Origin: Peribacillus frigoritolerans
GTDB lineage: Bacteria; Bacillota; Bacilli; Bacillales; DSM-1321
Reading direction: 5' to 3'
DNA: 64,000 nucleotides
Assembly (NCBI RefSeq): GCF_001636405.1
Contig: NZ_KV440950.1
Span: 488,001 to 552,000 of the forward strand
A program made the translations under genes and the position numbers. This document shows, piece by piece, positions 42,316 through 43,857 of this stretch (position 1 is the stretch's first letter; the number at the start of each line of letters is the position of its first letter). The notes below the pieces were generated by a model. The model was given only the letters and a program-made list of their open reading frames with translations, was not told the DNA's origin and did not search any database.

Positions 42316-42331
42316 GTTCTTTAAAAAGAAC
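42316..42331. promoter_or_regulatory. SinR-operator-like palindrome
   Basis: GTTCTTTAAAAAGAAC is a 16-bp inverted repeat; the left arm GTTCTTT fits the SinR consensus GTTCTYT, and the whole closely resembles the known B. subtilis operator GTTCTCTAAAGAGAAC. It lies 55-70 bases upstream of the small zinc-ribbon gene, in a good position to block its promoter, and sinR is encoded 0.8 kb away. Confidence 0.6.
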
Positions 42332-42385
42332 AATGAATTATTTGTAGAAAACAATTTGATCAAGGGGCAGAGGGGGTTGGATTAT

Positions 42386-42568
42386 TTGTATCGAAAGAAT
42401 TGCCATACATGCCACAGGGCTTCTTTTAGCAGTGCGGAAAATGGAAAGTGGCTTTGCCCGACCTGCGGTGAGGACTTAACTTCGCAAAAAGCCCACGATG
42501 CATTTACAATCGAGAGAATCAATACACCCCAAAGAAATTTTAAGAAGAGTAAAACGAAATTGAATTAG
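42386..42568 (+). CDS. Small zinc-ribbon protein of unknown function
   Basis: A 60-residue protein: M-Y-R-K-N then C-H-T-C ... C-P-T-C, a four-cysteine zinc knuckle in the first half, and a basic C-terminal tail. I chose the TTG at 42386 because AGAGGGGG lies 9 bases before it; a longer form from TTG 42356 has no such site. The zinc-ribbon pattern recalls small Bacillus stress proteins such as YdjO, but I cannot assign a family. The SinR-like palindrome upstream suggests it belongs to the biofilm regulon. Confidence 0.65.
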   Translation: MYRKNCHTCHRASFSSAENGKWLCPTCGEDLTSQKAHDAFTIERINTPQRNFKKSKTKLN

Positions 42569-42615
42569 TCTATGAAAAATCACCTGAACTTCAAATTTTC
42601 TTAATATTGTAATAT

Positions 42616-42694
42616 TTTGTCGGATGAAAGTTTTTGCATTTATGTGGATTACCGACATAAAATAGCAATATATGGAGTGCGTATCCGTTATAAT
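42616..42694 (+). promoter_or_regulatory. sinI promoter region with Spo0A-box-like sites
   Basis: TTTGTCGGA (42616-42624) differs from the Spo0A box TTTGTCGAA at one base; an inverted CCGACA (TGTCGG on the minus strand) lies at about 42652-42657. A TATAAT -10 element at 42689-42694 has no recognisable -35, as expected of an activator-dependent sigma-A promoter. In B. subtilis, sinI is activated by Spo0A~P. Transcription from here would start about 20-25 bases before the riboswitch. Confidence 0.5.
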
Positions 42695-42723
42695 ATGATT
42701 ATAGGTAATGTATTTGGTAATAA

Positions 42724-42818
42724 ATACCACGACAAAGGCAAACTCCTTGAAAAATGAGGGCGCAAAGGCACAGGTCTAAGGTCCTTGTGACTATGATGGC
42801 TGGTCTGCCTGAAATACA
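42724..42818 (+). ncRNA. Cyclic-di-GMP class I riboswitch (GEMM-I) in the sinI leader
   Basis: The aptamer core is unmistakable: GGCAAAC (about 42737-42743), a P2 hairpin capped by a GAAA tetraloop, then CGCAAAG (about 42761-42767). A P3 stem (CACAGG / CCTTGTG) carries CTAAG on one strand and TATG on the other, the 11-nt tetraloop-receptor signature, and ATGGCTGGTCTGCC closes P1 against the 5' GGCA. The two conserved GC-AAA strings hold the residues that contact c-di-GMP. Eleven bases after P1 an AAATAC / GTATTT hairpin abuts the AGGAGG site of sinI (42829-42834) and no T-run follows, so translational control is more likely than termination. Whether ligand turns sinI on or off cannot be read from sequence. 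Confidence 0.9.
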
Positions 42819-42842
42819 AGAGTATTTTAGGAGGTAGAAGAG

Positions 42843-42983
42843 GTGGCTAATGTGGAAATGGATCAAGAATGGGTGAAATTGATTTCTGAAGCAAGAAGCT
42901 TGGGTTTCAAAAAAGAGGAAATCATTGCTTTTTTGAAACGGGAAAGCCCTGAGGCAATATTTGAGGAGAACGATGGAAAATAG
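42843..42983 (+). CDS. sinI: Anti-repressor SinI
   Basis: A 46-residue protein. Residues about 6-33 (D-Q-E-W-V-K-L-I-S-E-A-R, then K-K-E-E-I-I-A-F-L-K) match the SinR-binding helical hook of B. subtilis SinI (D-Q-E-W-V-E-L-M-V-E-A-K, E-E-I-R-K-Y-L). SinI breaks the SinR tetramer and so derepresses matrix genes. Start is GTG with AGGAGG 8 bases upstream. Transcription must pass through the c-di-GMP-I riboswitch. Unlike B. subtilis, sinI is convergent with sinR, with a terminator between, so the two are separately transcribed. Confidence 0.88.
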   Translation: MANVEMDQEWVKLISEARSLGFKKEEIIAFLKRESPEAIFEENDGK

Positions 42984-43006
42984 GTTCAAAACAAATTCGA
43001 GAACAT

Positions 43007-43054
43007 CCCTATAAACAGTGGTTCGATTCATTGGCTGTTTATAGGGTTTATTCT
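43007..43054 (+). terminator. Terminator between sinI and sinR
   Basis: CCCTATAAACAG and CTGTTTATAGGG form a 12-bp perfect stem with a 16-base loop, followed by TTTATTCTT. It ends sinI transcription. Confidence 0.85.
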
Positions 43055-43114
43055 TCCTTGGGACTCTTGTGAGTCTAGCTTAGGATTATGTAGGTAAACT
43101 AGTGCACTACCACT

Positions 43115-43438
43115 CTACTCTTCTTTATCTTTTCTCCATTTATTAAACTCGATGAATTCCCTGAATGGTTGTTTTGAGACACCCGAATTCATGGCTTCCT
43201 CAACGATTCTCATCCAGTCATTGTCCAAGGTTTCCTTATTTGGTGCATCGTAAAGCAGGGCATCAACAGGGATGTTAAGTACGGAGGAGATTTTTTCAAG
43301 AAATTGAATAGAAGGATTCGTTTGTAAGTTCCGCTCGAGCGAACTTAAATAAGACTTTGCAACGCCTGCTTTATCGGCAAGTTCAGTCATCGACATTTTC
43401 TTTTCTTCTCGCAGTTTTTTTACACGTTCACCAATCAT
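43115..43438 (-). CDS. sinR: Biofilm master repressor SinR
   Basis: A 107-residue repressor. An N-terminal HTH_3 domain (G-E-R-V-K-K-L-R, L-A-D-K-A-G-V-A-K-S-Y-L-S-S-L-E-R-N) is nearly identical in its recognition helix to B. subtilis SinR, so the same GTTCTYT operator is expected. The C-terminal SinI-interaction domain (about 70-107) keeps D-W, A-M-N-S-G-V-S-K, F-R-E-F and K-W-R-K. I chose ATG 43438, preceded by GAGGTGG, over a GTG 9 bases earlier. SinR represses matrix operons and is titrated by SinI. It is on the opposite strand from sinI. Confidence 0.93.
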   Translation of the reverse strand: MIGERVKKLREEKKMSMTELADKAGVAKSYLSSLERNLQTNPSIQFLEKISSVLNIPVDALLYDAPNKETLDNDWMRIVEEAMNSGVSKQPFREFIEFNKWRKDKEE

Positions 43439-43857
43439 CAATACCACCTCGAAACATGTTCTATTTATCTTCCGCTAATAAGTTTCGGCAGCCCACCTTA
43501 TCATTCAAAACATGACGCCTGTAAGGTTGGATTACCTTGGCATGCTATCTCTAGAGAGGACACAGCATCTAGTGATGGAAGGTTGTGGATAATTCACATT
43601 TGCATATGGAATAGTGGGGAGTTTGCAACATATTTTTTATACTTCCTCCTATTTTAACAGTTTTCCTCCTCATTTATCCATTGTTTTTCGCAAGAATTGC
43701 ATTCAGGTCTATACCAGCGAAGTGACATGAAGTTGTACCTCTATGATAGAAGTGGTAAAATTAAGCGTGCATTAGTAATAATAGAAGGTGTGTTTCTTCT
43801 TACTTATATGAATTTTGTCATTGAACGATCATTACCATAATAGAGGAGCGTTATTGA
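43439..43857. other. 419-bp divergent region between sinR and secA
   Basis: No ORF with a plausible start. A GTTCTAT half-site-like sequence lies about 15 bases upstream of the sinR start and could be part of autoregulation. The secA ribosome binding site AGAGGAG is at the right end. I could not assign promoters with confidence. Confidence 0.45.

Follow-up and report, generated by a model that had tools for sequence, protein, structure and literature searches.

A c-di-GMP-I riboswitch aptamer before sinI in Peribacillus frigoritolerans: a probable translational ON switch, widespread in the order and apparently vestigial in Bacillus subtilis

The leader of sinI in P. frigoritolerans contained a c-di-GMP-I (GEMM-I) riboswitch aptamer that runs directly into a hairpin covering the Shine-Dalgarno sequence, and this leader probably functions as a c-di-GMP-I riboswitch that turns sinI translation on. 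SinI inactivates SinR, sinI of B. subtilis is switched by Spo0A, and c-di-GMP is the main signal for sessile life. If the proposed function is true, many relatives of Bacillus would have this main signal tied to SinI/SinR through translation. The window, i.e., the whole 64,000-nucleotide stretch of DNA that was analyzed, contained the following elements of the device:

42727 to 42812, + strand: c-di-GMP-I (GEMM-I) riboswitch aptamer (RF01051, 70 bits).
42808 to 42831, + strand: Shine-Dalgarno sequestor hairpin CCTGAAATAC-AAGA-GTATTTTAGG (alignments, pair counts, and folding).
42829 to 42834, + strand: Shine-Dalgarno AGGAGG, read from the sequence, 8 nt 5' of the GTG start.
42843 to 42983, + strand: sinI, encoding a putative anti-repressor of 46 aa with a GTG start (PF08671, 36.6 bits against a cut-off of 31.4).
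43115 to 43447, - strand: gene for a SinR-like repressor with HTH_3 and a SinI-type dimerisation tail (Pfam), convergent with sinI.

The original prediction had placed a c-di-GMP-I aptamer in the leader of sinI and had suggested a run of the RF01051 covariance model as a check. This run (Rfam cmscan, whole window) yielded a match that covered the full model (positions 1-87) at twice the gathering score of 35 (E 1.1e-11), and the next ORF was assigned to SinI by Pfam; no other Rfam family exceeded its threshold in the 64 kb. The range originally given, 42724-42983, contains the aptamer, but it begins 3 nt 5' of the Rfam match and ends with sinI. Alignment to the RF01051 model placed a GAAA tetraloop at 42749-42752 and identified the receptor as CUAAGG/CUAUGA. 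The residues that contact the ligand in c-di-GMP-I aptamers, as numbered in the available part of PMC4744006, were G20 at 42737, A47 at 42764, and C92 at the CC pair 42808-42809, to which C92 was mapped without a choice between the two C. The 5.46-Mb genome harbored three RF01051 matches, including that of the sinI leader. The second (L002) also precedes a SinI-like ORF, which was confirmed by Pfam, and the third lies before the ORF of a small Cys-rich protein, which had no Pfam match. A third SinI-profile match in this genome (G000:C1:2133953) had no RF01051 match beside it.

The AAATAC/GTATTT hairpin suggested earlier exists and is larger than described, as its 10 pairs between CCTGAAATAC (42808-42817) and GTATTTTAGG (42822-42831) reach into the Shine-Dalgarno and include the AGG of AGGAGG. 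The CC at 42808-42809 is doubly used, both as the C92 ligand-contact site and as the 5' start of the hairpin. The stretch GGTCTGCCTGAAATAC..GTATTTTAGGAGG was nearly invariant in an alignment of 14 leaders from the genus, among them that of the window but not L054. A more diverse set of 16 genus leaders differed in the loop of the hairpin, with 98.8% of the stem cells paired and no two-sided changes. A covariance model of aptamer, hairpin, and Shine-Dalgarno (R1) was built from these 16, and 99 of its matches were read, comprising nine genus leaders, 10 order loci, and 80 loci chosen to span genera, which is not a random sample; 81 of the 99 precede SinI-like ORFs. In these matches, eight of the 10 hairpin pairs showed two-sided changes, with 95.6% of cells paired. 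The whole-structure covariation score of the 99 leaders was reached by none of 500 shuffles and was above all slid versions, in an alignment that was fitted to R1 and therefore favors the structure, because R1 contains the hairpin; rebuilt stems are nevertheless visible in the raw rows, e.g., L155, L171, and L172. A scan of 42560-43100 for terminator-like sites gave none, and transcription termination was dropped as the platform for this reason; the original prediction had likewise noted that no T-run follows the aptamer. Translational control through the hairpin, the mode originally favored, is also the best reading here.

The direction of switching had been left open. It can now be narrowed to ON, given that ligand contact, P1, and pairing with the Shine-Dalgarno all involve the same nucleotides. 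P1 and the hairpin would thus compete for one strand, which points to an ON switch. When the ligand is absent, the CC that ends the aptamer, together with the eight bases that follow it, would pair with GTATTTTAGG, thereby covering the Shine-Dalgarno. When c-di-GMP is bound, these C would be held in the aptamer, with C92 touching the ligand and, in most leaders, C93-U94-G95 able to enter P1 with a 5' CAG. The hairpin would then lose its CC:GG end, AGGAGG would be freed, SinI would be made, and SinR would be inactivated. Folding of the 81 sinI leaders with the aptamer helices formed (ViennaRNA) gave a CC:Shine-Dalgarno pairing of 0.89 versus 0.39 with shuffled linkers, and the pairing exceeded all six linker shuffles in 62 of these leaders. 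When the CC was held as in the bound state, the predicted access to the Shine-Dalgarno rose from 0.49 to 0.75, compared with 0.52 to 0.66 for shuffled linkers; the gain (0.256 real, 0.146 shuffled) is partly due to the constraint itself. Relative to the unconstrained fold, holding the CC increased access by more than 0.05 in 70/81 leaders and decreased it by more than 0.05 in 4/81.

Three P1 pairs are possible in 63 of the 81 sinI leaders, two of which have the first G-C replaced by A-U. P1 of the window leader is weak, with G14-C93 as the sole possible pair. An upstream GUAUUU:AAAUAC helix could possibly stand in place of P1, and the GUAUUU at 42710-42715 was kept in all aligned genus leaders but one. 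As an extended P1 with AAAUAC, this element was retained as no more than a possibility, because the resulting state lies 9.4 kcal/mol above that of the hairpin (-22.4 vs. -31.8 kcal/mol).

The rise in predicted access in most leaders, the competition between ligand and sequestration for the same bases, and the absence of a terminator-like site 3' of the aptamer all argue against a real c-di-GMP-I aptamer that acts here as an OFF switch, or through transcription or mRNA decay. This alternative, which we regard as unlikely, is nevertheless in line with several observations: Vc2, the most familiar of the translational GEMM-I switches, is described as OFF (PMC9262584, available part), Bc1 of B. 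thuringiensis is described as mixing transcription and translation control (PMC11218506, available part), and an 8-bp hairpin still stands just 5' of the Shine-Dalgarno in the printed structures with the CC held. Unconstrained folding of the window leader gave a lowest-energy state without the aptamer, and its energy was not unusual (z -1.43; -1.91); like the weak P1 of this leader, this speaks against the ON switch. Together with the aptamer decay that did occur in Bacillus sensu stricto, the absence of the aptamer from this fold would suit a chance resemblance to an aptamer, or a riboswitch that has decayed and lost its function in this genome. Such an origin is extremely unlikely for a 70-bit match that has all three contact residues and lies in a leader conserved with covariation throughout the order; furthermore, alignment of the genus leaders showed that the aptamer core is kept while the loops vary. 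The translational ON switch is therefore the preferred reading, and it would represent a compact platform in which the ligand-contacting base itself lies within the Shine-Dalgarno cover.

The contact residues are consistent with c-di-GMP as the ligand that the aptamer would bind. A47 and C92 were present in all 81 sinI leaders and G20 in 79; the other two, L146 and L161, have A in place of G at position 20, and both are still RF01051 matches. A20, which we take to be a mark of the cGAMP subtype of GEMM-I, makes a changed ligand preference possible in these two leaders. When 20 loci were given to Rfam at gathering scores, 19 matched, the exception being L330 (B. subtilis). The best family for the 15 order sinI leaders among them was RF01051 in 11 and RF03167 (c-di-GMP-I-GGC) in four (L097, L101, L118, and L148). 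The RF03167 consensus GACGCGAAG has G where A47 stands, and that this G is defining is our reading of the family name. L097, L101, and L148, which are those aligned, have A at position 47 and were therefore kept in c-di-GMP-I. The window leader likewise has A, not G, at 42764, and its best family is RF01051. Sensing of another cyclic dinucleotide (3',3'-cGAMP type), or an otherwise altered specificity, is thus very unlikely, considering also that G20, A47, and C92 are conserved as described above and that the genome of the window encodes GGDEF domains. This reading would draw on the two leaders with A20, on the four leaders that fit the variant family best, and on the precedent of pilM, a c-GAMP-sensing member of GEMM-I according to the available part of PMC9262584.

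Upstream of the c-di-GMP-I aptamer, the window contained a putative promoter and further candidate regulatory elements:

42316 to 42331, no strand assigned: perfect SinR-operator-like palindrome GTTCTTTAAAAAGAAC (the genome has just one other perfect match; the reversed pattern, used as a control, gave one).
42356 to 42568, + strand: zinc-ribbon-like small ORF, located after the SinR-like palindrome and before the sinI promoter (ORF list; Pfam DZR_2 below cut-off).
42618 to 42622, + strand: Spo0A-box-like TGTCG, in all 14 leaders of the genus alignment, that of the window among them.
42653 to 42657, - strand: Spo0A-box-like CGACA, in 13/14 aligned genus leaders (TGACA in L046).
42689 to 42694, + strand: likely -10 TATAAT, from the sequence and its conservation in the genus (TAAAAT in one leader).

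The motif TGTCG/CGACA, which is presumably the Spo0A box, was found upstream of the aptamer in 47 of the 81 sinI leaders versus 7.2 expected from shuffles. The distance from the box to the -10 was exactly 36 nt in 31 of 41 measurable cases (one per leader, all CGACA), whereas shuffles gave 0.74 box/-10 pairs and 0.02 at 36 nt. The window leader has this spacing too, as its CGACA stands 36 nt before the -10, counted to the first base at 42689; the sigma-70 scan did not report this -10. Since this promoter (box and -10) stands upstream of the aptamer, transcription is expected to start near 42701, i.e., 5' of the aptamer. A Spo0A-type promoter would transcribe the leader, and sinI would then need both Spo0A~P and c-di-GMP.

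SinI (PF08671) is predicted to be the anti-repressor of the adjoining SinR-like protein. The palindrome at 42316-42331, which was identified with what we take to be the SinR operator consensus, points to at least one neighboring SinR target. At least one SinR-box-like heptamer was located 413-444 nt 5' of the aptamer in 20/20 genus leaders, and an adjacent inverted pair of such heptamers was seen by eye in 16/20. The small zinc-ribbon-like ORF was present at 17/20 genus loci (Cys-motif search) and is a candidate SinR target. A search of the genome for the TasA family (PF12389, TasA/camelysin) gave no match, although sinI and sinR are present, and TasA was dropped as a downstream target in this genome. 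In view of this, an effect of c-di-GMP on biofilm through the sinI switch is only a possible one.

The c-di-GMP-I/hairpin device before sinI is widespread in the order. Among the genus loci with strong matches, which number 21 with that of the window, every one had a SinI-like ORF 3' of the aptamer (20/20 oriented by script, and L054). R1 at E<=1e-14 matched 161 of 397 order genomes and 63 of 135 genera. A SinI profile, constructed from eight sequences of which at least seven were from this genus and used at E<0.01, flagged 82 of the 99 R1 loci; L012 among them is Spo0E-like by Pfam, which leaves the 81 SinI-like ORFs. Among the remaining loci, L125 is Spo0E-like and 16 are neither, including the Sda-like L180. 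All five SinI-like ORFs submitted to Pfam were confirmed. The search of other sinI leaders that had been recommended was carried out in 110 order genomes, where a SinI profile gave 118 matches at E<=2.2e-9 in 76 genomes, totals that may include some SinR. Thirty-eight of these adjoin an RF01051 or R1 match, and 27 of the other 80 have an R1 match of at least 50 bits upstream on the same strand. An aptamer therefore lies directly upstream of 65/118 SinI-profile matches, a count that leaves out the borderline L414 (37 bits); by genome, it was present in 57 of the 76 that have a SinI-profile match.

A DNA pattern of the hairpin was found in 106 stretches in named genomes, and the 80 listed belonged to Peribacillus, Metabacillus, Sutcliffiella, Rossellomorea, Gracilibacillus, Heyndrickxia, Oceanobacillus, Sediminibacillus, the B. 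pumilus group, and others. Among those 80, 77 precede a SinI-like ORF. The hairpin of L212 and L227 lies no more than 160 nt from the end of the 8-kb locus, and the match in L211 (a Desulfobacteraceae MAG) looks like chance. A full R1 match of at least 84.9 bits was present in 68 of the 80 listed loci; the end of the locus truncates L200, and the matches of L238 are split. Outside the order, SinI loci of another family carried RF01051 directly upstream (L308, 66.8 bits; L309, 62.6 bits). L308 also contained a second aptamer-like match (RF03167, 71.6 bits, 2410-2495, - strand) approximately 0.7 kb 5' of the sinI-linked RF01051.

Aptamers of this class were also found before other genes. Spo0E-like phosphatase genes follow c-di-GMP-I aptamers at L012, L013, and L015 in the genus and at L125; L012 and L125 were identified by PF09388, and L013 and L015 by eye. 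A similar Shine-Dalgarno hairpin, CCTAAAATA..TATTTTAGG, is present in three of these leaders (L012, L015, and L125). At L180 (G352:C11), the gene after the R1 match encodes an Sda-like inhibitor of sporulation (PF08970). A conserved small Cys-rich protein beginning with MFFPTIYS.. or similar follows a c-di-GMP-I aptamer at L001, L011, L014, L017, L020-L027, and L029-L033, and the single one tested had no Pfam match. L126 and L184 have R1 matches before long ORFs that are EAL-domain-like by eye, which suggests feedback on c-di-GMP turnover. At L116, L117, L186, L187, and L188, the R1 match is followed by a terminator-like hairpin, with a clear T-run in four by eye; judged by eye, these five represent a different platform type.

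Bacillus sensu stricto has retained the hairpin and shows remnants of the aptamer. SinI was found in 44/44 genomes of the genus containing G252, and the SinI of G811 is 100% identical to what we take to be the SinI sequence of B. subtilis 168. The hairpin 5' of the Shine-Dalgarno was kept in all 30 sinI leaders read of the 44 found, and 17 of these (L330-L346, including B. subtilis) also carry CATGGCCGGAYTGGC or a close form, which is a recognizable 3' half of the aptamer. L330 and L340 matched 13 of 15 bases of the functional aptamer 3' end, which was equaled by three and none of 20,000 dinucleotide shuffles, respectively, and L345 matched 12/15 (seven of 20,000 shuffles). The match to the aptamer 3' end was no better than chance in L347, L350, L351, and the pumilus-type L354. 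A degenerate aptamer in the B. pumilus group was rejected, as Rfam at E<=1 gave none in eight loci. R1 reached at most 22.3 bits on the Bacillus sensu stricto leaders, compared with 80-120 bits for the 99 leaders, and RF01051 matched none of 14 control genomes, B. subtilis among them. The sinI leader of B. subtilis resembles the device in its CGACA 35 nt from the -10 (hand count), in the hairpin CTGAAATAC..GTATTTTAGGAGG, and in CATGGCCGGACTGGC, which fits the aptamer 3' half at 13/15. In contrast, it lacks an RF01051 aptamer, since Rfam at the gathering score detected no c-di-GMP aptamer in L330, and its R1 score was 21 bits. On these sequence grounds, the B. subtilis leader appears to be a vestigial riboswitch, i.e., a relic and not a member of the class. 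The full device is present in two more genera of this family (g64: L096, L098, and L147; g128: L148), and the simplest explanation is that Bacillus sensu stricto lost the aptamer. The aptamer would have decayed while the hairpin was left, with Spo0A as the known remaining input. The available part of PMC4879592, citing Gao 2013, states that c-di-GMP is present in B. subtilis without a role in biofilm control, which fits an aptamer relic; the loss would provide an evolutionary reason for this reported absence.

Taken together, it seems reasonably likely that c-di-GMP control of sinI is ancestral in the order and that SinI is made only if Spo0A~P and c-di-GMP agree. Bacillus sensu stricto, including B. 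subtilis, would have lost the sensor and kept the sequestor hairpin, so that the textbook SinI/SinR switch would come from a lineage with a broken c-di-GMP input. With GEMM-I aptamers also on Spo0E-like and Sda-like genes, c-di-GMP would act through translation as a general input to the decision on sporulation and biofilm. The same degree of confidence applies to this scheme as a whole.

The sinI switch belongs to a riboswitch class that is known, and its target had been listed before. The original prediction knew of no described riboswitch before sinI, a statement that does not hold, because a putative (c-di-GMP)-sinI riboswitch is listed for B. methanolicus MGA3 (BMMGA3_08510; PMC4342826). 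That element came from a set of mapped 5'-UTRs of more than 100 nt and is thus transcribed in B. methanolicus (PMC4342826). It shares the gene, the aptamer class, and the position in a mapped 5'-UTR with the present device; on the other hand, the available part of PMC4342826 gives one table line and a text phrase, without mechanism, conservation, or test. The open-licence literature, as far as available, yielded no account of the order-wide spread, the mechanism, or the B. subtilis relic, and earlier work may exist; the mechanism, the breadth, and the B. subtilis remnant look new. In B. thuringiensis, overproduction of a diguanylate cyclase, or high c-di-GMP, is reported to increase sinI and spo0A mRNA (PMC7793685, available part), which could be a transcriptional route. 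The window leader shares the aptamer, G20/A47/C92, and the GAAA tetraloop with its receptor with the c-di-GMP-I family (RF01051; Vc2, Vc1, Cd1, Bc1, and Bc2). Judging from the available parts of the sources, it is unlike Vc2, which is translational OFF (PMC9262584), unlike Cd1 and pilM, which act on transcription, and unlike Bc1, which has a long dual-terminator platform (PMC11218506). The sinI leader differs from the known family in its target and in a short hairpin that shares the CC with the aptamer and is predicted to act as a translational ON switch.
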